A stretch of 64,000 nucleotides of DNA. Origin: Eutreptiella sp. 'Long Island Sound 2002'. Taxonomy: Eukaryota > Euglenozoa > Euglenophyceae > Eutreptiales > Eutreptiaceae. Where the stretch lies: contig OZ038400.1 in assembly GCA_964036045.1 (NCBI GenBank), positions 12,707,079 through 12,771,078 of the forward strand, read 5' to 3'. The notes below the pieces were generated by a model. The model was given only the letters and a program-made list of their open reading frames with translations, searched no databases and was not told the DNA's origin. Positions 41,304 through 62,962 of this stretch are shown piece by piece. The position numbers were made by a program, and so were the translations under genes. Numbering within the stretch: position 1 is the stretch's first letter; every line of letters starts with the position of its first letter.

Positions 41304-42088
41304 AGAAAAGTTTATAGTGTTTTCAGCACTGTGTTTTTGCTTCTCCTGCTGGTTGCTGTAGGTGTAGGGTTTCCTGCTGCTTGTTTTGGAAGATGAAAAC
41401 CTTTGTTTTGCAGAGATAGAGTCAATCCAGGATAACCCGAGGCAGAAGTGTGCAAAGAGGAGAAGATCAGGATCAAAGCATGAAGGGCTGCAGTGTAAAC
41501 AGTGAAAGATGATTGGATATTCACAGAAACAGCAACTCAGGTCACAAATGAATGCATATTCACAAAGATAGCTCAAATGGTTTGGAAAAGAGTTAGAAAA
41601 CTGCCTCGTGGTCACTCTCTCTTCATAGTGCCATCTCAGGAGATGTGCACGCTTTGTTTTGGGTCCCATATGTGCTGAGGTGGCAGGGCATGTGGCGATG
41701 AGGTCACTGCCATGTCACATGGGATCTTCCTACTTAGCTAGGCTGACCGGGAATTGAACCCAGGACCTCTCAAAAAGAGGTGCCCAGCCCCCTAGGGTGC
41801 ATACCACTAGGATAGCTAAGAATTCATGGAAAAACATAGATAAATTCATAGGCTCTACCTTAGGCATGTCAGTGCTCAGTCAACTCAGGAAAAGATGAAT
41901 AGCTTCACATTGAAAGGGGATTAAGGGGTCCACTCCATATCCTGATTGGGTGTTTGGTTCCATAGGTCAAAATGTGTTATCACCACTTTTGGTGGGACCA
42001 ATACTAAGATAAAAATGCATGGATGCTCAGTGCATCTCCAATACAACTAGAGTATGCCTCAAAGCAATGGAAAAGCACTTTTTCTTAC
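41304..42088 (-). repeat. 3' LTR
   Basis: About 777 bp match the other LTR from TTATAGTGTTTTCAGCAC (41312) to CTTTTTCTTAC (42088). Eight further bases (AGAAAAGT) lie between the duplicated GGACC and the shared start and are absent next to the 5' LTR, so the exact element end is uncertain by that amount. Confidence 0.92.
41733..41820 (-). other. tRNA-like segment in the 3' LTR
   Basis: Read on the minus strand, 88 nt are closed by CTTAGCTA and TAGCTAAG. Inside are an A-box-like TAGTGGTATGC, an anticodon-type hairpin ACCTC-TTTTTGA-GAGGT whose 7-nt loop would place UUU at the anticodon, and a T-arm CTGGG-TTCAATT-CCCGG containing a full B-box GGTTCAATTCC. The variable region is only one base and the acceptor pairing is not in standard register, so this is a tRNA-derived sequence rather than a proven tRNA gene. 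Confidence 0.5.
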
Positions 42089-42097
42089 CCCCCCCTT
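42088..42097 (-). promoter_or_regulatory. Polypurine tract next to the 3' LTR
   Basis: On the minus strand AAGGGGGGGG directly abuts the LTR start GTAAGAAAAAG. This is the position and composition expected of the plus-strand primer of an LTR retroelement, and it helps fix the LTR edge. Confidence 0.75.
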
Positions 42098-44557: not shown

Positions 44558-47500
44558 TTACACCAGGTAGAAGCCTTCCTTAGCCATCTCCTCGGCGTTC
44601 ATGTCAGGGAGTTCACCTTCAACTTCCATAGGGCTGGCAGCCCCTTGTAGGTCCAGAGCGGCGATTTCCTCGTCGTTCAGCTCCCACTCCTCCCCACAGA
44701 GGTCTTCAGGATCATAGTAGCGCTTCAGGTGTTGAGCAGCGCACACCAGGGTCCCCCCTAGACGGGGAGAACACCGCACGGTGATACGGTGTCCATCCAC
44801 TGATAGGATCTTGTACGGCCCGAAGTATGGGTCATCGCTGGTAGAGCGTGGCCAGGCGGGTAGTCGACTGTGGTGCACCAGCACCCAGTCCCCCTCTTGG
44901 TAGGTGGCCGGTACTCGGTGCTTGTTCTTCTTGTTCCACTGACGCTCCCTCACTCTCTGGAGCATAGCCTTGGCCTTGTCCACCTTCGCTTGCTGTTCTT
45001 GGACCCATTCACCCACAGAAGAATGGGTGTCCTCTGGATAGGGGGCATGTAGGAACCACGCCGGGCGCCCCAGGAATAGCTCATGGGCCGAGTAGCCAGT
45101 CGCTGAACTCTCTTGGGAGTTCATCATCAAGGATATGACGGGGAGTAGTCTCACCCAGTCTCTGGTGCGTTCAGTTTTGCACCATATCCTGACGTTCTCC
45201 TTCAGGACACGGATCTGTCGCTCACATAGGGGGTTGCTCGTGTGAGAGTAGGGAATCCCCGTAGACACCTGGACATTGAGGGATCTCAGGACCCTCTTGT
45301 ACCAGCAAGTATCTGAGCGTACTCGCACGTCCTCATCGGAGTTGATCTCCTTGGGCGACCCATAGACACAAAACCACTCCTCCAGGAGTATCTTGATAGT
45401 CTCCCCCCCGGTAATGTGCTTGGTACATGGGAACACCCTGGTAAACCTGGTCAACCCACAGGTTGCCACGAGGGCGAAGTCATAGCCCCCGAACTTCGGC
45501 ATCTCCGTGTAGTCCACGTATAGAACACTGTTAGCACAGTGTGGGATGGGCAGGGTCGAGTAGAGACCTCTGTCCCTGATATCCCCTGGTTTACAGGACC
45601 TGCACGGGCACTTGTCCACGATAGGCTGGAGGGTTCTCCGCAGTTGGTCGTCAGTCCACGTAGTGTGGAACCACTGCTTGAACAGCCTCAGGGTGCAGTC
45701 AGCACCCACATGACCACTGGACTCATGGGTCCACTTCAGCAGCGCTGGGACTCGGTCACTAGGCACCACGATACGGTCCTCGTGCCATAGGTAGCTCTTG
45801 TCCCTCTTCCACTGGTCTTGGTTGACCAGGAGGGGTTCAAGGCGTTTCTCCAGGCGCTTGTAGATATCCCCGAACTCTTTCAGGTACTCCAATTGTTGGA
45901 GTCCATCCAGGGGGCGTATCATAGTCATGTTGAGGTCCAAGTGGACGTCCATACGGCTGAACGACTCCTTAGCCAGCGCTTCAGACCGGGCACCAATCAG
46001 GGCGTCGAAGTTGTTGCGGCTGATGTAGTCGGCACACTCGTTCTTCACTCCCTGGATATGGTGTACCGTCAGCCGTAGTTGACTGAGGTAGGTCCACCAG
46101 CGCCGTAGCTTGGCCTTTTCAGGTGGGGGACCCTTCTGGAAACTGCGGACCGGTTCTTGGTCGCATAGCCAGACCACAGGGTTACTCCCCAACAGTCGTG
46201 CTTGTGAGGATAGCACCAGCATACCCGCGAGCAATTCCTGCTCATAGGTGGAGTAGTTCCCCCTGGCCTGGTTCCACTTCCAGTTCCAGTGGCCCAGAGG
46301 TACTAGGACCCACTTGTCGTCAGGGTAGCTGTGCTTGAGGGTTCCATCTCGGTTGAGACCTTCAGTCCCCCATTGGGAAATGGCTGAGTCGAACTCCTCC
46401 TTCTCTAGTGCTTGCCATTGGAACAACGTTCCACCACCGCCCACATTGCTGGCGTCGGTCACCAGGATAATCTCCCCTTGTGCTCTAGGCACGCCCAAGC
46501 ATTTAGCGTTGGCTACCTTGTCTTTGAGCTCGTCAAACGCTTGTTGCTCTTGTGGGCCCCAGCGCCAAGTAGTACTCTTCTTGATCAAGTCCGTCAGTAC
46601 GGCGCTGGTATAGGTGAAGTTTTTGATGTGGCGGCGATAGAAGTTGCACGCCCCAATGAAACTGCGTACATCATGAAGTCCTTTCTTGGGGTCTTTGTGT
46701 CGTACCTTGGCGTCCATCAGTGGTTTGGCCTTAGAGGCCGCTGGGGTCCACCACCCATAGCCAACGTCAAACCCCAGGTACTGCATGGTCTCCTGCATGA
46801 ACTCACACTTCTCCAGCTTGAGTCGAGTGTGGTTCTCCTGGCAGACCGCAAAGAACTCACCCAAGAGGATTAGGTGATCCTCCTGGGTATTGGTCCCAAG
46901 GCATACATCGTCGATGTGAGCCTCCATCTGGGCACCACGGGATATGAGCTCCTGCACCTTAGGTCTCCTTCGTAGGATGGACAAGATCTTGTTCATCAGC
47001 TCTTGGAATAGAGCGGGCGCGTTAGCCACGCCAAACGGCATGACCTTCCACTTGAACACCCTCCCCTGAGGGGTGATGAAGGCCAGTAGTTCCTGTGCGT
47101 TGGGCGTCAGGTCCACTTGCCAGAATCCGCTTCGCTTGTCCATTTTGGTCTTGTAGCGACAGGAGGCTATCTTCTCCAGGGTAGACTCCATATTGGGGAT
47201 GGACCCTGAGTGGTTCAGCGTCTTCTTGTTCAGCTCTCCATTGTCCACTACCAGCCGTTTGGCTGTAGACCCAGGTTTAGCCACCAGGAAACAGGGGCTG
47301 CAGTGTAGGGGGTAGTCCCCGTCCTTGTACTCCAGGACTAGGCCAGCGTCGATACACTCTTGTATCTGTTGCTCGATCTCGTCGGCCTGTTCTTTAGGAG
47401 CTGGATAGGGTCTCCTCCGGATCTTGTGACCCACGAACTCGGGTTTCAGCTTGAGGTCCATCTGTACCAGCTTGTCACATGAGGTAGGAGGGGGTAGTTC

Positions 47501-49213
47501 TCCGAACACCTCCAGATAGGTCCTTATAAGCTTCTGTACCCTCGGGTCCAATATCTTGATCTTGTCCTCCATGTCCTCGTCAGAGTGTAAGTTGCTTGCC
47601 CCCTGGGAAATAGACGTCGGGAGGTGGTCCTCCACCGACTCTTCGCCCGTGGTAGTATCCTTCAGCCCTTGGTAGGCATATAGAAGGTCTTGTTCAACCA
47701 TCTTCGATGGACGATGGCAACATAGGCACGCTCGAGGGGGTTCACATACACATTCCTCCGAGAGGTTGTCCTCCTCTCGGGTCCTCACATGGGCGCCCCA
47801 CACGTTCTTCATGAGCTTGAGATCTACCTCCCTTTGCCAGGTGGTGATCTTCTGTTCGAGGTCCTCCTTCAATTGGGATAGGTCTCCCATACGTCCTTGC
47901 TTCAGTGGCCATGAGCTGCGGGTAGGCTTCGCGTAGCATAGCTTTTTCGCCACCAACTTCCTCTTGGAATCCACATACTCACTGAGCCTGGATCGAGGGT
48001 CCAGCTCCTCGTCCACGGGGTCTTCCACCCTCATGGAGAGTAGGGGTTTTAGTGGGGCGACGTACTCGGCGTTCCCCACTTCCTCCACACAGGTCTGCAC
48101 GAAGAAGGCGTCGTGCTCAGTTTCGTCTTCTGAGTGGATAGAGCTGGGTAGCTCAGATAGTCCACACTCAGAGACTCCATCAGGAACAGGTACACGGCAG
48201 GGAGAGTTGGGGGTGTTGGTGTCAGTCACGACGTACTCATCTCCTCCGGGTGTAGTCTCAACAGCATCTTGAGGTCGTAGGCGATCCTTCAAGTCACCCA
48301 AGGCGAGTCCATCGCTTTCTCGCTCTATAGCCTGGACCAGAGTCGGGTCCAGTTCCTCCCAGGGAATGGAGGTAAGACCTCCGTGCACCACGCTAAGCAT
48401 GCTCCCCCATCCGGGATTTCCAATGGGCGTCTTGCGCCCCAGAGGCACGTAGATGGCCTCATCAGGCAAACGTACAGAGCTGATAGTCAGCCTGTCCAGG
48501 AAGATTCGCCAGTACTCGTTGCCCCCATGGGCTCCCCAATCGGGGGAACACAGGACCATACGGGAACGTTCCAAGGCCACCTTGGTCAGCACCTTCCCCA
48601 GTTCACTGAATCTGGGGTTCCCGTAGGCCATCCCGAACGAGGGCCAGTAAAATTTGTAGCTGCAGTTCTTCCCCTTGCTGCAGTAAAGGTCCAGTTCATG
48701 TTGCTTTTCGCTGGCGAACAACTCCACACTCAGGTCTTCTCGAGAGTAACCCAACTCCTTCAGACCTTGGTCTAGGACTTCCCCCAATAGTTGATAGTCC
48801 TCAGTTTTGGAGGCCGCCATCATGTTAGAGGGCTCCTCCTTCGATAGCCTCAGGTAACTCCAGGTATGTTCCGACTGCTCCAGTGGGACAGACTCTCTGC
48901 CACTGCCGTGGTCCACGTAGAGGAGGTAGGGCGCTTGCAGCGTCAGGGATTGTATCTGGGAGTGCTGCACGAAGAAGTCAGTCCCCAGCACAAAGTCGAA
49001 GGCATCAGTGTCCATCACATAGAACCGATGGGCGATAGTCCTGGAGCCCATAGGTACCTCCACTTCACAGTCCCGGCAGCTGTGCACCACATGTCCATCC
49101 CCCATGCGTATAGCGGCGGTGGTCATGGTGTTCTTCAGGCTCCCACAAGGTAAAATTTTCTTGGCCACTATAGATATTGTGGCGCCAGTATCCAGTACCC
49201 CCAGGGAATTCAC
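44558..49213 (-). CDS. pol: Pol polyprotein (protease, MT-like domain, RT, RNase H, integrase)
   Basis: An intact 1551-codon frame. Residues count from a GTG at 49213; the first ATG is codon 30, so translation must come from gag. Aspartic protease: DTGA at 8-11 and VLGTD near 75. Residues about 155-260 resemble a Dam-like/DIRS methyltransferase domain (ELFAS 164-168, YGNPRF 197-202, SPDW 223-226). Reverse transcriptase: first Asp D692 (KMDKRSGFW) and HIDD at 766-769 in place of the usual Y-x-D-D. RNase H: D920, E993, D1018, D1062. Integrase: H1163, H1168, C1204, C1207 zinc site, then D1234, D1295 and E1331 with 35 residues between the last two. A GPY/F-like module (YFGPYKIL) lies near 1462, and an acidic tail ends in FYLV. 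The domain order is Ty3/gypsy. All catalytic positions except the RT tyrosine look standard. Confidence 0.95.
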   Translation of the reverse strand: MNSLGVLDTGATISIVAKKILPCGSLKNTMTTAAIRMGDGHVVHSCRDCEVEVPMGSRTIAHRFYVMDTDAFDFVLGTDFFVQHSQIQSLTLQAPYLLYVDHGSGRESVPLEQSEHTWSYLRLSKEEPSNMMAASKTEDYQLLGEVLDQGLKELGYSREDLSVELFASEKQHELDLYCSKGKNCSYKFYWPSFGMAYGNPRFSELGKVLTKVALERSRMVLCSPDWGAHGGNEYWRIFLDRLTISSVRLPDEAIYVPLGRKTPIGNPGWGSMLSVVHGGLTSIPWEELDPTLVQAIERESDGLALGDLKDRLRPQDAVETTPGGDEYVVTDTNTPNSPCRVPVPDGVSECGLSELPSSIHSEDETEHDAFFVQTCVEEVGNAEYVAPLKPLLSMRVEDPVDEELDPRSRLSEYVDSKRKLVAKKLCYAKPTRSSWPLKQGRMGDLSQLKEDLEQKITTWQREVDLKLMKNVWGAHVRTREEDNLSEECVCEPPRACLCCHRPSKMVEQDLLYAYQGLKDTTTGEESVEDHLPTSISQGASNLHSDEDMEDKIKILDPRVQKLIRTYLEVFGELPPPTSCDKLVQMDLKLKPEFVGHKIRRRPYPAPKEQADEIEQQIQECIDAGLVLEYKDGDYPLHCSPCFLVAKPGSTAKRLVVDNGELNKKTLNHSGSIPNMESTLEKIASCRYKTKMDKRSGFWQVDLTPNAQELLAFITPQGRVFKWKVMPFGVANAPALFQELMNKILSILRRRPKVQELISRGAQMEAHIDDVCLGTNTQEDHLILLGEFFAVCQENHTRLKLEKCEFMQETMQYLGFDVGYGWWTPAASKAKPLMDAKVRHKDPKKGLHDVRSFIGACNFYRRHIKNFTYTSAVLTDLIKKSTTWRWGPQEQQAFDELKDKVANAKCLGVPRAQGEIILVTDASNVGGGGTLFQWQALEKEEFDSAISQWGTEGLNRDGTLKHSYPDDKWVLVPLGHWNWKWNQARGNYSTYEQELLAGMLVLSSQARLLGSNPVVWLCDQEPVRSFQKGPPPEKAKLRRWWTYLSQLRLTVHHIQGVKNECADYISRNNFDALIGARSEALAKESFSRMDVHLDLNMTMIRPLDGLQQLEYLKEFGDIYKRLEKRLEPLLVNQDQWKRDKSYLWHEDRIVVPSDRVPALLKWTHESSGHVGADCTLRLFKQWFHTTWTDDQLRRTLQPIVDKCPCRSCKPGDIRDRGLYSTLPIPHCANSVLYVDYTEMPKFGGYDFALVATCGLTRFTRVFPCTKHITGGETIKILLEEWFCVYGSPKEINSDEDVRVRSDTCWYKRVLRSLNVQVSTGIPYSHTSNPLCERQIRVLKENVRIWCKTERTRDWVRLLPVISLMMNSQESSATGYSAHELFLGRPAWFLHAPYPEDTHSSVGEWVQEQQAKVDKAKAMLQRVRERQWNKKNKHRVPATYQEGDWVLVHHSRLPAWPRSTSDDPYFGPYKILSVDGHRITVRCSPRLGGTLVCAAQHLKRYYDPEDLCGEEWELNDEEIAALDLQGAASPMEVEGELPDMNAEEMAKEGFYLV

Positions 49214-49219
49214 GCCCCC

Positions 49220-49222
49220 CTA
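49220..49222 (-). other. In-frame TAG just before the protease
   Basis: In the pol frame, read on the minus strand, TCC-GAC-TAG-GGG-GGC-GTG precedes AATTCC and the protease. Upstream of TAG the pol frame is open back to about 49331 and overlaps the end of gag. A ribosome shifting from gag into pol would meet this stop 18 codons after the gag stop. It is either a point mutation in this copy, a sequence error, or a readthrough site. Confidence 0.8.
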
Positions 49223-49274
49223 GTCGGATACGTACCCAAAACACCAGGTCTTGGGTGCCACCAGAGCGTCCCCG

Positions 49275-49751
49275 TCAGAACTCCGCGGGACAGGTCACCT
49301 CGAACCCCTTGTTCCGCAACTTGCGGGCCATCCTCATGAAACGGCTCCTCTTCTTAGCGTTGCCGTCGTCACCACCTTCATGCTCACGCTTGGCTCCTTG
49401 TTCTTGCTGGGCCTGCGTCTGTGAGCGTGTGGTAGGACCAGTCTGCCCTCCAGAGGGCTCGGAGTTCCCCCCTGGATTAGGGTTGGGGTTGCCTCCGTTC
49501 TTGTCCTTGTTCTTGTTGTCGGGCTTGCGGTTAGCGCCTCCTCCTCGTCCACCTTGACCCTTGTCTTGCCCTTGACCACGTCCTTTCGACTTGCCCTTGC
49601 CGGAGTGGTTGCCTTTGGCCTTGCCTCCACCTTTGCCTGAGCCTTTGCCAGGATCCTCACCCTTAAGCTTCGCCGATAGGTGTTGCTTATGGTAGCACTC
49701 ATCCTCATAGTGCTTCCGCTTACCGCAGAATGCACACGTGATGGTGCACAA
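49275..49751 (-). CDS. gag: Gag, nucleocapsid part with zinc knuckle
   Basis: The carboxy-terminal gag segment is in the same frame as the 50220-51752 segment but is separated from it by a middle part in another frame. It holds a CCHC zinc knuckle, C-x2-C-x4-H-x4-C, at 49695-49736 (CAFCGKRKHYEDEC), as retroelement nucleocapsids use to bind RNA. A long Gly/Lys/Gln/Asn-rich stretch and a basic end (NAKKRSRFMRMARK) follow. It ends at UGA (49277-49275) in the context TTC-TGA-C. The pol frame is +1 relative to it. The first codon of the open stretch is TTG, so it has no start of its own and must be read as a continuation. Confidence 0.8.
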   Translation of the reverse strand: MCTITCAFCGKRKHYEDECYHKQHLSAKLKGEDPGKGSGKGGGKAKGNHSGKGKSKGRGQGQDKGQGGRGGGANRKPDNKNKDKNGGNPNPNPGGNSEPSGGQTGPTTRSQTQAQQEQGAKREHEGGDDGNAKKRSRFMRMARKLRNKGFEVTCPAEF

Positions 49752-50240
49752 GTAATGATCCGCAGCTTCGCTTTGGCGCCGGTGTTCTTTTCCTGCTGCT
49801 TCCCCTGGACTACGAAGCAGTCTCGCTGCTCGCAGTCAGGGGCGTGCTGCAGGTGGCCCTGCTCGTCCCTGGCATCACACCAGAATAGCTCCTGCACGTT
49901 CTCAATCATGCGGCCGTGGGCGTGTTTGGGGGTAGTCCCCTGCCCAGGTCGGGACCCTTGGTACCCTTTGCCTCCAGAACCTCCACCACCAGGACGGTAG
50001 TTGTTCAAATGCTGGTCGCTCTCCTTCTCCAGCGCCATCTCCAGGAGCAGCACGCATAGATCCTCGTAGTGGAGGGATCTAGCCTTGCGCTCAGCCGTCA
50101 AACGGCAATCGTCCCATAGCTCTCGGGGGAGCTTGGCCACCAACCAGAATAGCAGGTCGTCGCTGCTGTAGGAGCCGGGCGTCAGTCGTCCAGCCCACTG
50201 ATCCAGATCAGCCAACAGCTCAGATACCCTGCCAGGCTTG
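49752..50240 (-). CDS. gag: Gag, middle part in a shifted frame
   Basis: The frame is open from about 50326 but looks like gag only from about 50240 down to about 49755. It contains VSELLADLDQWAGRLTPG, DDLLFWLVAKLPRELWDD and LHYEDLCVLLLEMALEKE, helical capsid-like sequence followed by a Gly-rich linker. It lies +1 to the preceding segment, with the switch near the CCCC of CTACCCCAAGCC (about 50242), and returns to the original frame just before the zinc knuckle. Two compensating single-base changes would explain this. They could be mutations or sequence errors. Downstream of 49752 the same frame runs on out of phase and is not meaningful. Confidence 0.65.
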
Positions 50241-51752
50241 GGGTAGGTTCTGGATCTCGACCCTGATGGAGAGGTCGGTCTCGTAGGTCGGGTACTGCCT
50301 CTCCAGGGCAACCAACACATCGGCAAAGGTGGCGGAGTTAGTCACGATCTGCCTGACCTGCTTCTCCAGGTACTTGGTCTTGCAGCACTGCAGGAGCAGA
50401 TCGCACTTCACTCGCCCACTAGCGTGGGTTTGGCCGGTCAATCGTAGGAACCGACCAAAGTTCTCAGCGAACTCGCTGAGGTCCTTGCCTGTGAACTCAG
50501 GCAGGTTCACCACGATCTTGGAGGTGGCTATAGCCTTCGCCCCCAGAGCTCGGCGTCCTTCAGGGCGTCGGGTCTTCTTCTTCTTCTTCTTCTTCTTCTT
50601 ACCCTTGGGATCCTCGGGGTCCTTCGGGTCATCGTCCTCCGAGGGCGAAGAAGAGTCCATCGACGGCGGCTCGTCGTCGGAGGGTTCTCCGCCTAGATCA
50701 CTAGAGCCATAAGGCTCCACGTCCACCATTGCCCTTAGGGCTGTCAGCCCCAGCCGGTCCAGCTCGGCCCTCGTCGAGTTCGTCACGTGGCTGTAGGGCG
50801 GCTGGGCCGTTCTCGGCACGAAGGGACTTCTCGGTACTGCTGCAGGCGTCGGCATCGGTCTGCTCCTCAGGCTCCCCAGGGTATTTGTCAACCCTGCCGT
50901 CAGGTGGTTAGCCTGTACTCGGTGGGGTGACATTCCCACCGAGATAGGTGACGTTTGGGGCGGGATCATCAGGGGCTCCAGCTTCTCTCTGATCTCTTGA
51001 GTGAGATCGCCCACGATTTTTGAAGTGGCTCCTCGGAGCACCTCGTTGATCTCCGACCGCGTCAGGGACCTGTTGGAGGATCCTCCCGATCCTCTACTCC
51101 TGCCACCAAGAGATTCGGGTCCTCTCCTCAACCCACTCAAGGGTGCATACCCAGGTGCATACCCAGGAGCATACCCAGGAACATCCACATAGGTTCCAGT
51201 AGCGTGTAGTGGATGGGGATAATCAGCTGCATACCATCGCGGCGCAGAGCTGGAAGCCACCGGCTCACTGGCAGTAGTTGCCTCATGGAGCGCAGTGGTA
51301 GGTGGGCCCATACCATAGGCGGGGTAGGGAGGTATGCCAGTAAAGCCTGTGCCCTCTGCCATAGGCGGGTTGGTTGTGGAAGTGGATGTTGCAGCGGCTG
51401 GGAGTGTGGTGGTTATAGGAGAGGGTGATGCGTGGAGGCCAGAAGCGCTTGGTGCGCCTTCGAAGGTAGGGTCTTGCGTCAGGTCTTGCGCTTGTTCCTC
51501 TCCTTCGTCTGCTTCTTCTCCAGCATCCTTCTCGCTCTCTCCTCTCTTCCTCTTCACAGGCTGAGAGACCACGACGACCTCCTCGACAGACAGGGCCCCG
51601 AAGGCCGTCTGGAGTCCATCCAGGGAGTCCTCAGCCGCATCCACTGGCCCATGTAAGGGCTCCGCCGAAGGTACAGCGCCAGGTGCCGGCCTTGCCGGTG
51701 CCTCAGGCGCTGGCGCTGTCGTCACGTCAGCGTCCTCCTTTCTTGGATCCAT
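50220..51752 (-). CDS. gag: Gag, amino-terminal part
   Basis: A 510-codon frame starts at ATG 51752, about 96 nt inside the 5' LTR, a normal place for gag. Residues 1-340 are Pro/Ala/Ser-rich and low complexity (including three YAPG repeats); residues about 345-400 hold an acidic patch (SEDDDPKDPEDPKG) followed by a run of nine lysines. Residues about 405-505 are a conserved-looking gag/capsid segment (LPEFTGKDLSEFAENFGRFL, CDLLLQCCKTKYLEKQV, ALERQYPTYETDLSIR). The frame stops shortly after NLPQAW, where the next gag segment continues in the +1 frame. Confidence 0.85.
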   Translation of the reverse strand: MDPRKEDADVTTAPAPEAPARPAPGAVPSAEPLHGPVDAAEDSLDGLQTAFGALSVEEVVVVSQPVKRKRGESEKDAGEEADEGEEQAQDLTQDPTFEGAPSASGLHASPSPITTTLPAAATSTSTTNPPMAEGTGFTGIPPYPAYGMGPPTTALHEATTASEPVASSSAPRWYAADYPHPLHATGTYVDVPGYAPGYAPGYAPLSGLRRGPESLGGRSRGSGGSSNRSLTRSEINEVLRGATSKIVGDLTQEIREKLEPLMIPPQTSPISVGMSPHRVQANHLTAGLTNTLGSLRSRPMPTPAAVPRSPFVPRTAQPPYSHVTNSTRAELDRLGLTALRAMVDVEPYGSSDLGGEPSDDEPPSMDSSSPSEDDDPKDPEDPKGKKKKKKKKKTRRPEGRRALGAKAIATSKIVVNLPEFTGKDLSEFAENFGRFLRLTGQTHASGRVKCDLLLQCCKTKYLEKQVRQIVTNSATFADVLVALERQYPTYETDLSIRVEIQNLPQAWQGI

Positions 51753-51848
51753 CTTCTTTCACCCTTCTGCTTATATTTGCCCGTACTCGGCGCACTGGAT
51801 GTACGGCACGGGTTTGCTGCCGGTGCGCAGAGACAGGCTGCCTCTTGC

Positions 51849-52625
51849 TTATAGTGTTTTCAGCACTGTGTTTTTGCTTCCCCTGCTGCTTGCTGTAGGT
51901 GTAGGGTTTCCTGCTGCTTGTTTTGGAAGATGAAAACCTATGTTTTGCAGAAATAGAGCAATCCAGGATAACCCAAGCCAGAAGTGTGCAAAAAGGAGAA
52001 GATCAGGATCAAAGTATGAAGGGCTGCAGTGTAAACAGTGAAAGATGATTGGATATTCACAGAAACTGCAACTCAGGTCACAAATGAATGCATATTGACA
52101 AAGATAGCTGAAATGCTTTGGAAAAGAGTTAGAAAACTGCCTCATGGTCACCCTCTCTTCATAGTGCCATCTCAGGAGATGTGCACTCTTTGTTGTGGGT
52201 CCCATATGTGCTGAGGTGGCAGGGCATGTGGCGATGAGGTCACTGCCATGTCACATGGGATCTTCCTACTTAGCTAGGCTGACCGGGAATTGAACCCAGG
52301 ACCTCTCAAAAAGAGGTGCCCAGCCCCCTAGGGTGCATACCACTAGGATAGCTAAGAATTCATGGAAAAACATAGATAAATGCATAGGCTCTACCTTAGG
52401 TATGTCAGTGCTCAGTCAACTCAGGAAAAGATGAATAGCTTCACATTGAAAGGGGATTAAGGGGTCCACTCCATATCCTGATTGGGTGTTTGGTTCCATA
52501 GGTCAAAATGTGTTATCACCACTTTTGGTGGGACCAATACTAAGATAAAAATGCATGGATGCTCAGTGCATCTCTAATACAACTAGAGTATGCCTCAAAG
52601 CAATGGAAAAGCACTTTTTCTTACT
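51849..52625 (-). repeat. 5' LTR
   Basis: About 776 bp matching the 3' LTR with scattered single-base differences and small indels. Since gag-pol run on the minus strand, this right-hand copy is the promoter-bearing one. Its outer edge is followed by the duplicated GGACC of the satellite. A single T (52625) lies between the shared end CTTAC and GGACC. Confidence 0.92.
52269..52356 (-). other. tRNA-like segment in the 5' LTR
   Basis: Identical in layout to the copy at 41733-41820: CTTAGCTA/TAGCTAAG ends, A-box-like TAGTGGTATGC, UUU-type anticodon hairpin, and a T-arm with B-box GGTTCAATTCC. Its presence in both LTRs shows it belongs to the element and is copied at each transposition. An internal pol III-type promoter is possible but unproven. 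Confidence 0.5.
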
Positions 52626-53135
52626 GGACCTTCCTCTAGAGACTAGTGTCGCTTTCACGCCCAAGACACCTGTCAATTCGAGATCTAGAGCCGTTTTGGG
52701 CCACCCCCCGCTTGGGTTGGTTTCCCAACGGCTACGTTTTCTACGGTGTTTCTGGCTTTTTTGCACTCCCGGGACCTTCCTCTAGAGACTAGTGTCGCTT
52801 TCACGCCCAAGACACCTGTCAATTCGGAGATCTAGAGCCGCTTTGGGCCACCCCCCGCTTGGGTTGGTTTCCCAACGGCTACGTTTTCTACGGTGTTCCT
52901 GGCTTTTTTGCACTCCCGGGACCTTCCTCTAGAGATTAGTGTCGCTTTCACGCCCAAGACACCTGTCAATTCGGAGATCTAGAGCCGTTGCGGGCCACCC
53001 CCCGCTTGGGTTGGTTTCCCAACGGCTATTTTTTCTACGGTGTTCCTGGCTTTTTTGCACTCCCGGGACCTTCCTCTAGAGACTAGTGTCGCTTTCACGC
53101 CCAGGACACCTGTCAATTCGGAGATCTAGAGCCGT
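52626..53135. repeat. ~147-bp satellite array, right part, about 3.5 units
   Basis: Continuation of the 35871-41303 array after the retrotransposon. It starts with the duplicated GGACC and TTCCTCTAGAG and ends inside a unit at AGCCGTTTTTTGG. Confidence 0.95.
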
Positions 53136-53662
53136 TTTTTGGCTCCCTAGAATGCCTCGCATGCATTGCGTTACAGGACAAAAGCCGCATCACGCTTGAA
53201 CTTATTTCGTCACAATCTCCACCAAGGCTTCTTGAGGGAAATTTGGGTGGGAACAAGCTATTGGATGGGTCCGTTGGCCTTTCACTCCGGTTAGACAACA
53301 TGATTTGTGCATCAAGTTTGCCACCGGCCTCAACGTGGAGGACACCTCACACTCAAAACCGGCGTCCATCGAATTTAGGCTCCGCAAACCCATGCCATAT
53401 GTCGTTGCACTACATTTGGCACCGAATGAAATTAGGTCCCAAATTGATACAGTCCCTACGTCTCAACTCAGGATTGGTCGTAGTGCACTAGCTATGTCGG
53501 GGGTCCATGACAGGCCAATTCAATCAATCCATAACTCTTAGGCCATGTCCTCCCACCACACATTGCCAACTGGGACACACCCGCACATTCAAACACCCAA
53601 CTCCAATCCATATGTCTGCATGGCAGCATTGCATAAGACATGGCTAGACACCCCCCCCCCCT
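53136..53662 (+). other. Single-copy stretch, possible upstream part of a host gene
   Basis: A plus-strand frame at 53305-53541 (MCIKFATGLNVEDTSHSKPA... to a stop) has protein-like composition but no recognised domain. It could be an upstream exon of the gene proposed for 53815-55342, or chance. Confidence 0.25.
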
Positions 53663-53814: not shown

Positions 53815-54264
53815 GCGCAGTTGGGGGATGTGACAACTCAAATGGCAGGGGTCCAATCAATCAATGACAAACTTCCACATTTTAAATGTTTTCGATGCCG
53901 CGGGGCATTCCTCGTTGTTGATGCTCGCCATACCCAATGCCTCTCTGCTATTAATTCTGCTGATGGACCACAATATGTGCACCATGTCGATCGCACATCA
54001 CTGTTGCAGCATTTGTAATACACGATGCCTAATTCCATTGTGCCCCCACGTGTTCGATGCCCCATGGGGAACACACTCCCCCAAGACAAACAGGGGTTTA
54101 GATGCTGCGCGATATGCGGGTGGAAGGTGCACTTGAAGGAACCGTCCAAGCTCACTATTCCAGCCAACGCGTGCCAGTTCCATCATGCCATGAAGGAGGG
54201 CGTGGGAAGGCCAATGCAAAGGACAACGGAAACTTTGCACTCGCCCCATATGGGACAACGATGA
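53815..54264 (+). pseudogene. Cys-rich coding-like segment, frame interrupted
   Basis: One plus-strand frame reads FKCFRCRGAFLVVDARHTQC up to a TAA at 54016-54018. It continues in the same frame from 54025 with RVRCPMGNTLPQDKQGF, CCAICGWKVH and ACQFHHAMKEG, then loses sense near 54200. Paired CxxC motifs with a later C and HH suggest a metal-binding fold, but I recognise no family. The stop and the frame change near 54205 mean this is either decayed or contains introns. It probably belongs with the ORF that follows. Confidence 0.35.
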
Positions 54265-55342
54265 AGAGTACACCGAGTACCCCGATCCGTGGCTGAGCAA
54301 AACTAATGAAGGCCCTGGGCTAACCCCTCCTCAACCCGCTCAGCCAAAGTCTAATGAATACTCTGGGCCAACCCCTCCTAAACCCGCTCACGTCGCCCCC
54401 ATTGATGCACCCTCAACCCCTAACCTTGCACCCGGCGCACCTAGACTACTAGACGAGGCTTTCTGTGCGGAGAAAACCTTAGATTGTGTGCAAGCCCTGC
54501 TGCATGAAAAGGTGGGGAAGGGAGTCAAAGTATGGGAGCTTAGAAAACTCCCTCGAAGTGAAAGTCTTTTTCGTTTGAGGGGTTGGGGCCTCAACGAGTA
54601 TGAGGTCCAAAGAGCACAATGGGCCTTTGACCAACCCCGTCGTTGGCCAGTGGCCAAATTGTTCAAGGAAGCGGGAGGTGCAGAGCACGTCATGGGTCCT
54701 CAATCGATACGTGACCCACCTGCTTCTCCGCCCTTTTCTCCCGACAAATCACCTTCTCCACCCCCTTCCAGAATGCCCTCAAAAAACCAAACCCACGAGG
54801 TGTTGTACAACATCGACCCTAACCGTGGCCCACTTGTCCCGTCCAGCCGATCCAAGGCAACTTGCTCCCAGCAAGCTATTGCAACTACCCTGCAATCTCG
54901 GCCGCTTGACAGCACACCGCCTTGCGTGAATGTGATTGCACGGAAAGTTGGGAACGCGCGAGGGAAAGGGAAGGGGAATGGAAAGGGGAAGGGCCATTCT
55001 TCTGCTCGGCACGTTGGAGAAACACGGAAGGGGAAGGGAAATAGGAAGGAGCATTCTCTTGCTGGGCAAGTCGGAGAGATTGGAAAGGGGAAGGGGAAGG
55101 AAAATGGGAATGGGAATGGGAATGGGAAGGGGAAGGGGAAGGGGAAGGAAAGTGATTTTGGGCAAGGAAAGGGGAATGAGTGCCATCGCTTTGCAGCCTC
55201 CAAACCACGAAACCCAAACTCCAAGCCTGTGCCTGATGCTATTAGCGTTTGCAGTAGTAGGAGTAGTAGTAGCAGTAGCCCTGGTCGTTGCTACTTGACT
55301 GGAAGCGACGGTGAAGCATCCCACATAACAATGGCAAGTTGA
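54212..55342 (+). CDS. Hypothetical protein with Pro-rich, unknown and Gly/Lys-rich parts
   Basis: This is the longest open frame outside repeats and the retroelement. It is open from about 54212, with a first ATG at 54488; the part from 54488 is 284 codons. The upstream part carries two related Pro-rich copies (TNEGPGLTPPQPA and SNEYSGPTPPKPAH). Then comes a compact segment (ALLHEKVGKGVKVWELRKLP, FRLRGWGLNEYEVQRAQWAF), a Pro/Ser linker, a long G-K-G/G-N-G low-complexity stretch, and a Ser run near the end. I do not recognise the compact part. The start is uncertain: in euglenids mRNAs receive the spliced leader, so an upstream acceptor rather than a promoter would define the 5' end. The GK-rich part could also reflect a simple AAGGGG repeat on the plus strand. 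Confidence 0.45.
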   Translation, partial: QCKGQRKLCTRPIWDNDEEYTEYPDPWLSKTNEGPGLTPPQPAQPKSNEYSGPTPPKPAHVAPIDAPSTPNLAPGAPRLLDEAFCAEKTLDCVQALLHEKVGKGVKVWELRKLPRSESLFRLRGWGLNEYEVQRAQWAFDQPRRWPVAKLFKEAGGAEHVMGPQSIRDPPASPPFSPDKSPSPPPSRMPSKNQTHEVLYNIDPNRGPLVPSSRSKATCSQQAIATTLQSRPLDSTPPCVNVIARKVGNARGKGKGNGKGKGHSSARHVGETRKGKGNRKEHSLAGQVGEIGKGKGKENGNGNGNGKGKGKGKESDFGQGKGNECHRFAASKPRNPNSKPVPDAISVCSSRSSSSSSPGRCYLTGSDGEASHITMAS

Positions 55343-55345
55343 TAT

Positions 55346-56463
55346 TTGAGTGAGGCTAGCACACCAGGAGGGACAGTACCCCCCCCTCGACACGTGAGCA
55401 GGGAACGCATCCCTCGTCACACGCCACTTTCCAATCCTGTTGGGAAGCGCACCAGACGTTCCTAACCGTTGAACCCATGTCATATGTCTTTGGTACAGCT
55501 TCATGGCCCCCGAACGATGTTTTCGTTACTTGCACTCATTTACCAAAAGAAAGGATGACACAATTCATGCCCACCACTGTTCCCGATCCTTGACTCCATT
55601 GCAAGGTTCCAGGAACTCTCCCGTATGTGTGACATTCTAGAGTCCCTTGTTTCAGCTTTGAGCAATGTGGACCCACGATTCCTTTTTTTTGTTCCCAATG
55701 TGCTTTGCCACACAAAGGGTACGAAATGGCATGGCAACATGGTTTGAACGAACAGCACGAGCGTCCCCTACTCTTAGCATACATGCCAGTCATGCCAGTG
55801 GGGCAGCCGTGTCAGCGACACAACTCGTCCTGCAGTACTTCAGGGGTGCATTATGCCACCTTGCTATGCATTATGCTGCACAGTGTGTTGTGCTATCTTT
55901 TGTGCCTCATGTGCACAGTGGAGCCGGAACCCTGTGTTTTGCCAATGCATGACCTTGTGGCAGACCCATCTCATCTACACTGCGTGTCATATCTGCTACC
56001 GCAACCATTCGTGGGATCTTTGTAGAACTAGACCCAACACACCTTTCCAACCAGGGATTGGGGTGGGTGCGTGGTTGGGTGGGGGGGGGGGGTGAGCAAA
56101 GGGCCCCGAATGACGTGGAACGAAAAGTTGACCAAAGCAAGGGTCACGGATTTGGAACGCTTTGACATATAAGGAAGGGACCACGCACCTCATGTGGCTC
56201 CTGTTGGTACCTATAAGTGGTTTTAGCCAAATATACCAAGGAGATGTACCACAGGCTCACAACCCATGCACCCTTACCCCAGCCTTCCCCAACCATTCCA
56301 AATAGATGTTTTCTCTTTGTAGGTGCGCAAACCCCAATGAAAGCTTTGGTGTTGAACCACCAATTGATGATATGATGTGCGCTATTGCTACTATTGTTGC
56401 TGCTCGTGCTGTTGCTATTGTTCTTGCTCACGCGATTGCGGGTAATTTGAGGGCGTATTGTGA
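55346..56463. other. Single-copy stretch, no gene recognised
   Basis: It contains short ORFs on both strands, a G run near 56084, and a GCT/ATT-type trinucleotide-like stretch at about 56385-56430. I cannot support a gene. Confidence 0.5.
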
Positions 56464-56475
56464 GGGGTAAAAATA
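56464..56475 (+). other. Remnant at the module B border
   Basis: GGGGTAAAAATAGGGTTAG, starting here, leads into module B and corresponds to the TTAGGG tract before copy 1 at 27942-27965. Only one or two units remain. Confidence 0.4.
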
Positions 56476-58912
56476 GGGTTAGCTATATTATCTCTAACCC
56501 ACAGTGTGCCGGGAAAATTTCCAAATTGTCCCTTGATGCGAGAGGATAATTATGAAAAAGTGTTTGACCCCTTTTGGACCCTTTTGCGATCGTGAAATGC
56601 CCCAATGTCAAGCCCTCTTGGAATTTTTGGAGGCTTGGGGGGGGGGGTCAATGGGTAACTAGAGAGTGTTGGGCGCCTGGGACTGAGTATTTGAAACCGA
56701 AATGCAGCACGTGCACTGCTTTATGATAATTTACTTCAGCCTGAAACCTTGAGCCAGAATAAGTGGACTCACCCCCCGTTTCCTGGGGTTCCATAGTGAC
56801 AATGAGAGTTGGAGTGTCCGGTGCTGCACCGCTACGATGCCCACCCCCTGCGTGTGACAGGACACTGTGCGCCACTCAAAGGCTGGGCCTTGCTCCAACG
56901 TCCTTTGAAAGGGGTGGCCCTTGGTCCAAAAGCATTTCAGCATTTCAAAGGGGGGGGTGCTTTTACGGCAAGGGGGGGGGGGGGCCTTTGGGGCGGGATG
57001 ACATCCTTTGGCACCGTGTATTTCGAACTGCAGCTTGGTGCTTTTGTTTTGCTTTGATGTGTACAAGGGACCCAAGGCCGGTGGGCCAAAACCAATGATT
57101 CGAGGGTAAAATCCAAGGACCACAACTTAAATTGCAGGGAGCGAGGGTTAAATGCAAAACGTCTATGGGAAAAACCCTAGGACCGAAAGGTAGAACCCAA
57201 GGACCAAAGGGCAACATCCAAAGACAAGAGGGTTTTTTCCCTGTTGATACATTGCCCAAAGTCACACACTGAAATGGTCCTTTGAAAGGGGTGGGCCTTG
57301 GTCCAAAAGCATTCCAAAAGAGAAAAATCTTTTCAAACGGGTGCGGTTTGCTCCAACTACTCTTGAGAAGCGTGGGCCTTGCTCCAAAATTCGGTAGAAA
57401 AGGGTTGGTCCTCGCCCCATAGCCTTTAAATGGGTGTGCCTTGTTCCCAACACCTTTCCAAAGGCTGGGCCTTGCTCCAAAGTCCTTTGAAAGGGGTGGG
57501 CCTTGGTCCAAAAGCATTTCAACAAAGTAAAATTCTTTCAAACGGGAAGAAAGAGATGGTCAAAGAGGCAGGAAGGGGGAGGGGGGGGAAGGCACTAAAA
57601 ATAGAATGTCATGGCAAACTGTTAAGACGACGTGGATGGGAGCGCAGTGAATGCAAAAGCTACTTGCCAGAACAAAGTAGGGTAGCCAAAAACAGGGGGG
57701 GGGGGGCAAAAATCATTACCATTAAAAAAAAGTAAAAGAACGCTCATGGAATTGCGAAGCCTTTTTTCGCAACTTGGATGGGCCAATATGGCTCCAGTGC
57801 ACCAGCCTGTTGTATGATGAGAGAATTGGTTTGTGAGTCGCAGTGGAGTCTAAAGAAGTGGGGTTTGCCCTGCATGCTCAAGTGGGGCGAATATGTGCGG
57901 GCATTGCGGATCATCTTGGGGGGGAGGGGGGGGGGGTTATGGGGTGGGTGATCCTTGATCTGCGGATGATTTGGTGGGGGCGGGGGTTTGGACCCCCGCG
58001 GATCAGTGATCCGCGGACCGCCTACCACACCTTGCCCAGTGATCACAAAGAGCACTCTCCTCCTTATTGCCACTTTACATGACGTTTTTCAAAAGCATGT
58101 GTTGCCCCATGTAAGTAGGAGTGATGGTTGAACTTCTAGTACTACTCGCTTCGGGGAGACTGTTTTTTTCTTTTTGAACAAAGCAACCCCCTCTGAGAGC
58201 CGACAAATTGACTGCCTGGGCTGTGTGAATAGTTCCTCTTCGCTTGTTGCGCCTGGGGGGGGAGGGAAATACACTACCATACATACAAGTCAAACTTGCA
58301 CCATGCACACACACCTTGGCCTATCAAGTTTGTCTTTCTGTCACTTCCTTTTGCTTTCAGCTGTGTCTGTGTCCTCACCAAAGATGCATCTACCTACCTG
58401 CGGTTTACATTGCTGGGGACTTCTCGTTCTATGGCAACGGCGTCGGCGAATTGATCTACGCACTGTCCTCCCTGTTCATCACTGCCAACGCGTACTACGA
58501 CATTCAGGTCACTTTCCAGACCGTCTCCGTGCAAATATCCGGTGGGCTCGTGGAGCTTTTGTATGGCAGTGTATGGATGGACGGTGACATTCAGTTGAAC
58601 AGTGGCAAGGTACCACCCCCAGTCCCTTGCCCAAACACCCCGTTTTCTGGTCCTTTTTATGGCCAAGCCACTTCCACTGAGTGTGAGTTTGGCATTATTT
58701 GCTGCCGCACTGCCTCACGCCTGACGACCCTCCAGCGAATGCAGCGCCCCAAGGTCAGCACACAGGCCTGCGCGTGAATGTGGAGGGCCCCTGTTCTTTG
58801 TGCCGAACACAAAATGGTGGTACGACATGGGCCTCTTTTCCGGGGGACGGCCTTCTGCAGCCCAGTTTCATTTGCCCTGGGCAATGTGACAAAGTTGTGA
58901 TGTTGTTTCATC
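56476..58912. repeat. Duplicated module B, copy 3
   Basis: Matches 27966-30388 from GCTATATTATCTCTAACCC onward with small changes. The 27-bp opening palindrome is degraded here (GGGAAAATTTCCAAATTGTCC). About 57545-57800 contains AT/G-rich sequence not found in copies 1 and 2. The 21-bp palindrome lies at 57996-58016 and the candidate exon at 58361-58609. Confidence 0.9.
58361..58609 (+). other. Candidate repeat-borne exon, copy 3 (open frame)
   Basis: 249 nt lie between GCTTTCAG and GTACC, exactly 83 codons in phase 0 at both edges and open throughout (LCLCPHQRCIYLPAVYIAGD... to GDIQLNSGK). The frame also stays open on both sides, so splicing is not required to explain it. Not recognised. 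Because two of three copies carry a frameshift or altered donor, I treat it as a fossil exon or chance frame in a repeat. Confidence 0.35.
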
Positions 58913-59858
58913 CTAGGACCACAAGTTAAAATGCGGGGAGCGAAGGGTAAATGCAAAACGTCTATGGGAAAACCCCTAGGACCGAAAGGTAGAACCCAAG
59001 GACCAAAGGGTAACATCCAAAGACAAGAGGGTTTTTTCCCTTTCGATACAATGCCCAAAGTCACACACTGAAATGGTCCTTTGAAAGGGGTGGGCCTTGG
59101 TCCAAAAGCATTCCAAAAGAGCAAAATCCTTTCAAACGGGTGCGGTTTGCTCCAACTACTCTTGAAAAGCGTGGGCCCTACTCCAAAACTCGGTAAAAAG
59201 GGGTTGGTCCTCGCCCCATAGCCTTTAATTGGGTGTGCCTTGTTCCCAACACCTTTTCATGGGCTGGGCCTTGCTCCAAAGTCCTTTGAAAGGGGTTGGC
59301 CTTGGTCCGAAAGCATTTCAAAAGAGTAAAATCCTTTCAAACGGGTGCGGTTTGCTCCAACTACTCTTGAAAAGGGTGGGCCTTGCTCCAAAATTCGGTA
59401 CAAGGGGTCGGTCTTGGTCCCAGAATGCAAAAATATGAGAAGAAGGCGTCTAAACACAGAAAATGTTGAATATTGAAGCTCATTTTGTTGTTTTTTTTGG
59501 GGGGGGGAAGCCATGCACTAAAGGTGGCGAAGGCATCACAACATGAAAACAAAATGTTGCAAGGAGTTGCAGCCGAATAATGATGTGTGTGGCACATGAC
59601 GTTCCGAGGGTTGGGATCCGAGGATCTAGTTCAGGTCATCGAGCCAGAATTGGTTTGTGAGTCGCAGTGGTGTCTAAAGAAGTGGGGTTTGCCCTGCATG
59701 CTCAAGTGAGGCGAATATGTGCGGGCATTGCGGATCATTTTAGGAGGAAGGGGGGGGGGGTTATGGGGTGGGTGATCCGTGATCTGCGGATGATTTGGTG
59801 GGGGCGGGGGTTTGGACCCCCGCAGATCAGTGATCCGCGGACCGCCTACCACACCTTG
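58913..59858. repeat. Duplicated module B, copy 4 (truncated)
   Basis: A tandem repeat of 57114 onward, shift about 1801 bp (AGGACCACAAGTTAAAAT at 58915). It runs through the subrepeats and G-rich tract and stops at ACCACACCTTGCC (59858), where unrelated sequence leading to the 5S rRNA gene begins. The 21-bp palindrome is mutated in this copy (CGCAGATC). Confidence 0.9.
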
Positions 59859-60096
59859 CCTCGGCTTGGGTTACAGAGGCGGGGTCCCATTGAGGCCACG
59901 GTCACCTTTTTTTTCCCGGCTCGCCTGCGCCCATTTGCTCGTACTTGTCATCACTTGAGCCCGTCTTCCCCGTTTTCGGGGCGTCTGTATCTCATTGTCC
60001 CCCATGCGCGGCCCTTTTCGCTGAATTTTTCAGCGGTCGCCCGTTGGGACGCGGTCCACCCCTCGCCTGCGAACCAAACGTCCGCCCATGGCTGAT
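59859..60096. other. Upstream flank of the 5S rRNA gene
   Basis: 238 bp, GC-rich with a T8 run near 59908. No gene recognised. In eukaryotes 5S transcription depends mainly on an internal control region, so no promoter is called here. Confidence 0.5.
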
Positions 60097-60217
60097 GCAT
60101 ATGGCCATACTACAATGGGAACACACCTGAACCCGTACGATTTCAGAAGTCAAGCCTAGTCAGGCCCAGATAGTACTGAGGTGGGAGACCACTTGGGAAA
60201 ACTGGTTGCTGTACGCC
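60097..60217 (+). rRNA. 5S ribosomal RNA gene, euglenid type
   Basis: About 121 nt with the 5S layout. The 5' GCATATGGCCATAC pairs with 3' GTTGCTGTACGC to form helix I. The loop region has ACACCTGAACCCGTACGAT and TCAGAAGTCAAGCC, and the 3' domain has TAGTACTGAGGTGGGAGACC and ACTTGGGAAAACTGG. From memory it is closest to Euglena gracilis 5S rRNA among eukaryotic 5S sequences. Pairing in helix II (ACAATGGG against CCTAGT) looks imperfect and has extra bases relative to my recollection, so this copy may be diverged. T runs follow directly, as expected for pol III. It makes the 5S RNA of the large ribosomal subunit. The exact ends are uncertain by a few bases. Confidence 0.9.
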
Positions 60218-60222
60218 TCAAA

Positions 60223-60235
60223 TTTTTGCCTTTTT
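60223..60235 (+). terminator. Pol III-type T-run terminator after 5S
   Basis: Two T5 runs (60223-60227 and 60231-60235) begin about 6 bp after the 5S 3' end, in the correct strand orientation. Confidence 0.75.
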
Positions 60236-60390
60236 CCGGGACCTCCCGCGGCGCACCCCCAGACGCCCCCTCCATCCTGATTCCTCCCCTCCTTCCAACG
60301 TGCACACATGGCACATGTGCCACTGCGTACCGCCGGGCTCCCGGCAGCCCCCTTCCACGCCAACCCGCCGTCTGCGACATTTGGAGCGCA

Positions 60391-60478
60391 TTTTAGTACA
60401 TGGGTGACTATTAGCCACTCGGTAGGATCTGCTTGTTCCTAACGAGGCAGATCCTACCGAGTCGCCCATGGACTAAAA
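60391..60478. other. Long imperfect hairpin between 5S and SL RNA genes
   Basis: ACTCGGTAGGATCTGC (60417-60432) faces its perfect reverse complement (60447-60462) across a 14-nt loop. Outside it TTTTAGTACATGGGTGA (60391-60407) pairs with TCGCCCATGGACTAAAA (60462-60478) with two mismatches and a 9-nt bulge. It could be a small foldback element, an RNA, or a cruciform site. Confidence 0.8.
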
Positions 60479-60704
60479 ATGAGCTATTTGTACCAAATGC
60501 ACATGGAAAACACAGTACCCCCCCCCCATTTCGGGGTCGCTGAATCCAAAGCATCACTCATTTTGCCAATCCGAGACAGTGGCGTTGAGTTATGGGGGGT
60601 CCTAATGAGCGGTTGGGGGTCCTAAAAAACCGCGCGATGCACAGTGTGCGTGCCAACATGTGTGCAACAACGCGCTATGACACGCACACTCGCAGCAGGG
60701 GTAC
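60479..60704 (+). other. Upstream flank of the SL RNA gene
   Basis: It contains a C run near 60521, two GGGGGTCCTAA copies (60595 and 60616), and ACGCACACT/GTGTGCGT near 60640-60690. The SL RNA promoter should lie here, but I know of no fixed euglenid motif to point at. Confidence 0.4.
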
Positions 60705-60805
60705 ACTTTCTGAGTGTCTATTTTTTTTCGGTATGAACTTGCTTTGAGAAGCCAACCCGTGTGCTGACGCACCACTTTCTGGAGGCCAATGGGCCATATC
60801 CCTTC
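60705..60805 (+). ncRNA. Spliced leader (SL) RNA gene
   Basis: The first 26 nt (60705-60730) begin ACTTTCTGAGTGTCTA, continue with T8 and end in CG, the same as the Euglena spliced leader as I recall it. They are followed at once by GTATGAAC, a 5' splice donor. Downstream are a small stem GTGTG-CTGA-CGCAC, a CACTTTCTGGA that may serve as the Sm site, and a GGCC-AATG-GGCC hairpin, giving the usual SL RNA plan of leader, donor, stem, Sm site, stem. The SL RNA donates the leader to the 5' end of most nuclear mRNAs by trans-splicing. The 3' end is set at about 101 nt by the usual length and is approximate. It has the same orientation as the 5S gene 488 bp upstream. Confidence 0.95.
60730..60732 (+). 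promoter_or_regulatory. Trans-splicing donor site of the SL RNA
   Basis: The leader ends with G at 60730 and the intron-like part starts with GT at 60731-60732 (CG|GTATGA). Confidence 0.9.
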
Positions 60806-61019
60806 ACATGTCTGGAGTTCAAAACCCCTCCTCATGCAAACATTTGTTGCCTTGGAACTGCCCCGTAACAGTGCATTCCGCATTAAATACATGTCACTCC
60901 CACTGTGTATGTCCCCCCCCTCCCCCCTCAGCTAGGGGTAGGGGTTGTTCGTGTCCCTCCCATTTTGTAAAGACCCCCCCCCAACCCAGCTAGGGGTAGG
61001 GTTTGTCCGTGTCCAAGTT

Positions 61020-62865
61020 TCGCGGGAGGGGATAATTTTAAATTATCCCCTCGCTTTAGGGTAAAGATAGGGTTAGGGTTAGAATTTCTCCCTTGATGCG
61101 AAAGGAGATTATGAAAACATTGTATGATGTGAGGAAATAGTTTTAAATTATCCTCTCACGCGAGGGGATAGTTTTAAATTATCCCCTCGCGCGAGGGGAC
61201 ACTTTTAAATTATCCTCTCGCTTTGGGGTAAAGATAGGGTTACGGTTAGAAATTCTCCCTTGATGCGAAAGGAGATTCTGAAAATGTTGTATGATGTGAG
61301 GGGATAATTTCAAATTATCCCCTCGCTTTACGGTAAAGATAGGGTTAGGGTTAGAATTTCTCCCTTGATGCGAAATGAGATTATGAAAACGTTGTATGAT
61401 GTGAGGGGATAGTTTTGATAGTTTTGAACAATCCCCTCGCGTGAGGGAATAATTTTAAATTAGCCCCTCGCTTTGGGGTAAAGATAGGGTTAGGGTTAGA
61501 AATTCTCCCTTGATGCGAGAGGAGATTATGAGAATGTTGTATCATGTGAGGGGATAATTTGAAATTATCCCCTCGCGCGAGGGGATAATTTCGAATTCTC
61601 CCCTCGCGCGAGGGGATAATTTTAAATTCTCCCCCCGCGTGAGGGGATAATTTTAAATTATCCCCTCGCTTTAGGGTAAAGATAGGGTTAGGGTTAGAAA
61701 TTCTCCCTTGATGCGAAAGGAGATTATGAAAACATTGTATGATGTGAGGGGATAGTTTTAAATTATCCCCTCGCGCGAGGGGATAATTTTGAATTATCCC
61801 CTCGCTTTGGGGTAAAGGGTTAGGGTTAGGTTTGGAAATTCTCCCTTGACGCGAAAGGAGATTATGAAAACGTTGTATGATGTGAGGGGATGGTTTCAAA
61901 TTATCCCCTCGCGCGAGGGGATACTTTTGAATTATCCCCTCGCTTTAGGGTAAAGATAGGGTTACGGTTGGAAATTCCCCCTTGATGCAAAAGGAGATTA
62001 TGAGAACATTGTATGATGTGAGGGGATAGTTTTAGATTATCCCCTCGCGCGAGGGGATAATTTTAAATTATCCCCTCGCTTTGGGGTAAAGGGTTAGGGT
62101 TAGGGTTGGAAATTCTCCCTTGACGCGAAAGGAGATTATGAAAACGTTGTATGATGTGAGGGGATATTTTTAAATTATCCCCTCGCGTGAGGGGATACCT
62201 TTAAATTATCCCCTCGCGCGAGGGGATACTTTTAAATTATTCCCTCGCTTTAGGGTAAAGATAGGGTTAGGGTTAGAAATTCTCCCTTGATGCGAAAGAA
62301 GATGATGAAAACATTGTATGATGTGAGGGGATAGTTCTCAATTATCCCATCACGCGAGGGGATAATTTTAAATTATCCCCTCGCTCTGGGGTAAAGATAG
62401 GGTTAGGGTTGGAAATTCTCCCTTGACGCGAAAGGAGATTATGAAAACGTTGTATGATGTGAGGGGATGGTTTCAAATTATCCCCTCGCGTGAGGGGATA
62501 GTTTGGAATTATCCCCTCGCGCGAGGGGATACTTTTAAATTATCCCCTCGCTTTGGGGTAAAGATAGGGTTACGGTTGGAAATTTTCCCTTGATGCGAAA
62601 CGAGATTATGAAAATGTTGTATGATGTGAGGGGATAATTTTAAATTCTCCCATCACGCGAGGGGATAATTTTAAATTATCCCCTCGCTTTAGGGTAAAGA
62701 TAGGGTTAGGGTTGGAAATTATCCCTTGATGCGAAAGGAGATTATGAAAACGTTGTATGATGTGAGGGGATAGTTTTAAATTCTCCCCTCGCGCGAGGGG
62801 ATAATTTTCAATTATCCCCTCGCGCGAGGGGATACTTTTAAATTATCCCCTCGCTTTGGGGTAAA
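61020..62865. repeat. Array of perfect palindromes with TAGGGTTAGGG motifs
   Basis: Units of about 104-196 bp contain CTCGCTTTAGGGTAAAGAT, AGGGTTAGGGTTAG, AATTCTCCCTTGATGCGAAA and GAGATTATGAAAACGTTG. Between them lie one to three palindromic blocks. Two palindromes alternate: the 27-bp GAGGGGATAATTT-T-AAATTATCCCCTC (first at 61026-61052) and the 20-bp ATCCCCTCGCGCGAGGGGAT. The variable number of blocks causes the variable period. The same 27-bp palindrome opens module B at 27991. ORFs across it are artefacts. Confidence 0.95.
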
Positions 62866-62867
62866 GA

Positions 62868-62962
62868 TAGGGTTAGGGTTAGGGCTAGAGTTAGGGTTAG
62901 GGTTAGGGTTAGGGTTAGGGTTAAGGTTAGGGTTAGGGTTAGGGTTAGGGTTAGGGTTAGGG
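62868..62962 (+). repeat. Interstitial telomere-like tract
   Basis: About 16 TTAGGG-type units with a few variants (CTAGAG, TTAAGG), starting inside the last palindrome-array unit. Unrelated sequence follows (GGGGAATATCC). Confidence 0.95.

Follow-up and report, generated by a model that had tools for sequence, protein, structure and literature searches.

A euglenid-type spliced leader RNA gene sequence linked to a 5S rRNA gene copy within a duplicated block of subtelomere-type repeats

Spliced leader (SL) RNA genes and 5S rRNA genes are linked in Euglena gracilis (Keller et al. 1992, cited in PMC2784804). Most of these 5S-SL genes are described as tandem units of 0.6 kb, present in up to 300 copies, and some SL genes are dispersed (PMC2784804). 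The E. gracilis leader is printed as the last 26 letters of ACACTTTCTGAGTGTCTATTTTTTTTCG, and E. longa uses the same leader (PMC6242988). For Eutreptiella, the whole 28-mer has been printed and is described as 100% identical to the leader of E. gracilis (PMC3621762). Slight variation of the leader in E. gracilis has also been published (PMC4778363).

We analyzed a window of 64,000 nucleotides (C23:12707079-12771078, from an assembly of 2,280,300,865 bases in 2205 contigs). It contains an SL RNA gene sequence that resembles the 5S-SL genes of E. gracilis in its leader (PMC6242988), its GT donor, the 5S gene upstream on the same strand and its many copies. Unlike the 0.6-kb tandem units of E. 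gracilis, however, the distance from 5S start to SL start is by itself 606 bp, the window holds a single unit, and the closest pair of full-length copies read in the assembly lies 1638 bp apart. No 0.6-kb array (no spacing below 1.6 kb) was found among the full-length copies read, although such arrays may occur in other parts of the assembly, and we therefore class this SL RNA gene as a dispersed one. Its 28 nt are identical to the Eutreptiella leader, which is known from cDNA; the available text of that report mentions neither a gene nor 5S linkage (PMC3621762), whereas here both a gene sequence and 5S linkage are present. Kinetoplastid SL RNA genes are likewise multi-copy, short RNA genes that supply a cap and leader to mRNAs, but they have a 39-nt leader, tandem arrays and Pol II promoters shown in that work (PMC1888695).

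The features of the unit and its surroundings are as follows.

60703-60730, + strand: spliced leader, an exact match to published leaders; the 26-nt form begins at 60705
60731-60732, + strand: GT splice donor, read from the sequence; G29 and T30 are invariant across 13 distinct SL copies
60731-60805, + strand: remainder of the SL RNA; among 13 distinct copies, column identity averages 98% over 101 columns; the end is inferred from the 101 nt of the original prediction
60097-60217, + strand: probably degraded copy of the 5S rRNA gene, belonging to the linked unit (RF00001, 85.7 bits)
60414-60465, no strand assigned: inverted repeat between 5S and SL, 19-nt arms, 95%
55808-62577, no strand assigned: duplicated block holding the 5S-SL unit, 96% identical to C23:12.013-12.020 Mb
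61020-62882, no strand assigned: GAGGGGATA-type repeat
62868-62962, no strand assigned: TAGGGT tract, telomere-like by its sequence

The leader and the RNA behind it

The original prediction held that a leader-length stretch matches the Euglena SL and is followed by a GT donor, and both points stand. Positions 60705-60730 are identical to the published 26-nt E. gracilis leader (PMC6242988), the preceding AC completes the 28-nt euglenid form without a mismatch, and the donor lies directly 3' of it. This sequence is unique in the window on both strands when up to three mismatches are allowed. The same prediction took the leader to identify the organism. The leader does mark euglenids, but not Euglena specifically, because Eutreptiella and E. 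gracilis have it in common (PMC3621762). A search with a leader-donor pattern that allowed A or G at position 11 gave 0 matches in viral contigs and genome contigs, a set from which the window's own genome or a near one is possibly excluded.

The DNA does not decide between a 26-nt and a 28-nt leader start, and the 28-nt form permits a five-pair leader hairpin. When folding begins at 60703, the pair probabilities of this hairpin (60703-60707 with 60713-60717) are 0.75-0.99, and those of three further proposed hairpins are 0.01-0.36. The 101 nt from 60705 are no more stable than shuffled sequences (z +0.45; 127 of 200 shuffles were at least as stable). The SL RNA-like stems of the original prediction are thus weakly supported: the leader hairpin speaks for them, but the 101-nt fold and the further hairpins do not.

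Comparison of copies adds little to this picture. Among 13 distinct copies, the four proposed hairpins have 98.7% of cells paired, a value that all 500 shuffles equal, and none of the hairpins shows a two-sided pair change. RNAalifold prefers a different fold behind the leader, also with zero two-sided changes. Three leader changes in stem columns produce G-U pairs (U-A to U-G in two copies and C-G to U-G in one), which are compatible with the leader hairpin and nothing beyond it. Positions 60774-60783 hold a stretch that we take to be Sm-like. A literature text search for the SL RNA letters behind the leader found no matching paper.

The linked 5S gene and the inter-gene inverted repeat

The 5S gene copy is the sole match in the window at the Rfam gathering score; two microRNA matches close to the unit score well under the Rfam cut-offs. 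Its score is similar to those of the two other copies in the interior of contig C23 (84.7 bits), and the 5S genes at loci L004-L008 score 98.7-107.8 bits. Compared with the copy at L006, the 5S gene of the window carries an insertion of two bases and one extra nonstandard pair, in the end helix. A T4 run directly 3' of the 5S gene is present in 11 of 14 aligned copies and is missing in the three interior C23 copies, including that of the window. However, a T5 run remains about eight bases further downstream, and a terminator may therefore survive. Judged by these changes, the window 5S gene is probably dead or dying.

The inverted repeat between the two genes is kept in all 30 full-length SL copies compared, including copies that lack a 5S gene, and we therefore consider it an old component of the unit. 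The same observation rules out a mobile insertion private to the window unit. A fragment elsewhere (L013, 8404-8552) holds the hairpin of the inter-gene region together with some 40 nt of spacer, with no SL gene matched adjoining it.

Related copies and sequence change

When a 131-base SL probe was compared with the assembly, 40 places were scored out of 452 first-look candidates; among those scored, the window has 100% identity, and the others have 95-98%. We read 39 of the 40 places, leaving out C2:49732. A partial SL match on C21 (281475), which is without the leader side and reaches the edge of its locus, is also excluded from the count of 39. The exact 28-nt leader and donor occur in 30 of these 39 full-length copies; three of the others have G for A at position 11, and six have other single changes. 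The copies are spread over several contigs, and 21 of the 39 lie within the initial 1.6 Mb of C2. A 5S gene on the same strand lies within 900 bp upstream in 19 of the 39, and 18 of the 21 C2 copies lack one there. Similarity among copies spans the leader, the part behind it, the spacer and the flanks. The combination of A at 60713 and C at 60738 is private to the window among 30 aligned copies, and the C alone is also found in two others.

These data bear on what the sequence is. A chance match, which the run of eight T and the partly low complexity of the leader might favor, has a negligible probability: 0 of 100 dinucleotide shuffles contained a leader match at three or fewer mismatches (the chance expectation is none), and these shuffles, the 5S linkage and the relatives in the assembly rule it out. 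Nor is it credible, except at a very small probability, that the leader was copied back into the genome together with an mRNA. A lone leader of that origin would look identical across the 28 nt, but the similarity passes the donor and continues on both sides into the 5S gene, the spacer and downstream DNA, which rules out this explanation. The window copy instead appears, from its alignments, to have arisen by block duplication, not by retroposition of an SL RNA. The stretch almost certainly belongs to the SL RNA gene family, and the gene itself is of a known kind.

A more serious alternative, to which we give somewhat under an even chance, is that the window holds a pseudogene of the SL RNA, carried along with the duplicated block and intact only through youth, and that other copies provide the SL RNA of the cell. 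The worn 5S gene and the location of the window copy among the three interior C23 copies favor this explanation, but the leader and donor are unchanged. Relative to L006, the window differs at 1 of 101 SL sites, as opposed to 12 of 119 5S sites (plus two gaps) and 21 of 485 spacer sites. The difference between SL and 5S has p 0.004, and that between 5S and spacer plus flanks p 0.025; for SL versus spacer plus flanks, p is 0.11. Relative to six other compared copies, 1-3 of the 101 SL sites differ. A count of variable sites over 24 distinct units again fits a pseudogene. (For this count, 32 of the 39 copies were kept, all picked by SL similarity, and those without 200 nt downstream were dropped.) The SL part varies at 18 of 101 sites (leader, 5/28; behind the leader, 13/73), which is about as often as its surroundings, namely the hairpin block (13/105), the spacer (32/160 and 14/42) and downstream DNA (17/97 and 22/100). 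The intactness of the SL is accordingly weak evidence of use, and conservation does not show that the window copy is used. The gene can be called intact, as originally predicted, in the sense of its sequence, but the description extends no further, and the neighboring 5S copy looks degraded.

We therefore return to the reading as an SL RNA gene. The sequence is very probably one copy of a euglenid SL RNA gene that occurs many times in the genome, and its 5S-SL unit lies inside a duplicated block of subtelomere-type repeats. By analogy with published systems, such a gene would yield a capped RNA of about 100 nt, and spliceosomal trans-splicing would use the GT at 60731 to transfer its leader to pre-mRNAs at their AG acceptors. 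For the window copy, we infer transcription, the cap, the 3' end and use in splicing; on the DNA evidence, it might equally well be expressed or silent.

Genomic setting and its meaning

Part of the duplicated block (56517-62577) is also 96% identical to C23:29.078-29.084 Mb, and the two other C23 regions align with each other in inverted orientation, at 99.7% identity over 7.3 kb. The window has a repeated module of some 1.8 kb at 28569-32205 and 57822-59860; this module also occurs beside 5S-SL units or their relatives at L027 and L029.

Much of the remaining window consists of other repeats. Positions 1-12361 hold a 29-bp satellite (about 423 copies) with a GGTTAG tract directly after it (12279-12361). 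Satellites of 203 and 404 bp occupy 13529-27944 in a mirrored arrangement (13529-15562 versus 24193-22155, 94.6%), and such DNA also adjoins an SL copy on C2 (L009). An LTR retroelement at 41312-52624, whose LTRs (41312-42088 and 51849-52624) are 97.4% identical, splits a 147-bp satellite array into 35886-41303 and 52626-53138. On the - strand, this element encodes a reverse transcriptase and RNase H above the Pfam cut-off and an integrase core just below it. Long open frames at 54194-55342 (+) and 50220-51758 (-) have no Pfam match at E 0.5 or better.

Position on contigs was analyzed for 37 copies, as two of the 39 lie on contigs under 70 kb. Of these 37, all on long contigs, 34 are no more than 1.6 Mb away from a contig end. 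C23 holds the three interior exceptions, at 12.02 Mb, 12.77 Mb (the window) and 29.08 Mb. We also read two kilobases at each of six contig ends. TTAGGG-type arrays are present at three of the six (C2 start, C8 end and C17 end), and the C21 start carries the GAGGGGATA-type repeat, the same type as beside the window SL. The two kilobases read at the C19 end contain no TTAGGG, and the stretch read at the C23 start has N on both sides. Because this sample comes from the 40 places scored among 452 candidates and was chosen by similarity to the window SL, we treat a subtelomeric location as a lead, not a result.

As such a lead, the clustering of SL copies near contig ends, with no 0.6-kb array seen, is possibly new. 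Among the literature matches listed, within their available text, "subtelomeric" appears only in a trypanosome review. The copies read seem to have spread together with repeat blocks by segmental duplication, and the window copy would sit in an interior block whose 5S gene has started to decay. Extending this, we tentatively propose, as a possibility that we think somewhat doubtful, that many SL RNA genes of this genome, together with the 5S genes linked to them, are carried by subtelomeric repeat blocks that segmental duplication has spread from one chromosome end to another, instead of forming a single compact tandem array. Copies in the interior, including that of the window, would then be moved or former chromosome ends with a decaying 5S partner. 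The setting of the gene (a duplicated subtelomere-type block, a worn 5S partner and the lack of a 0.6-kb array in the copies read) might interest a specialist.

The exact leader, the linked 5S gene, the relatives on several contigs and the TTAGGG-type arrays support an SL RNA gene sequence of euglenid type and a nuclear genome around it that is euglenid-like, in agreement with the earlier assignment of the window to euglenid nuclear DNA. The leader thereby gives a place to a repeat-rich window that would otherwise be anonymous, and an annotator of this DNA should expect trans-spliced mRNAs. If the location at chromosome ends holds genome-wide, it would depart from the tandem-array picture in the available text of the literature, and it would matter for understanding how an essential family of RNA genes stays uniform.
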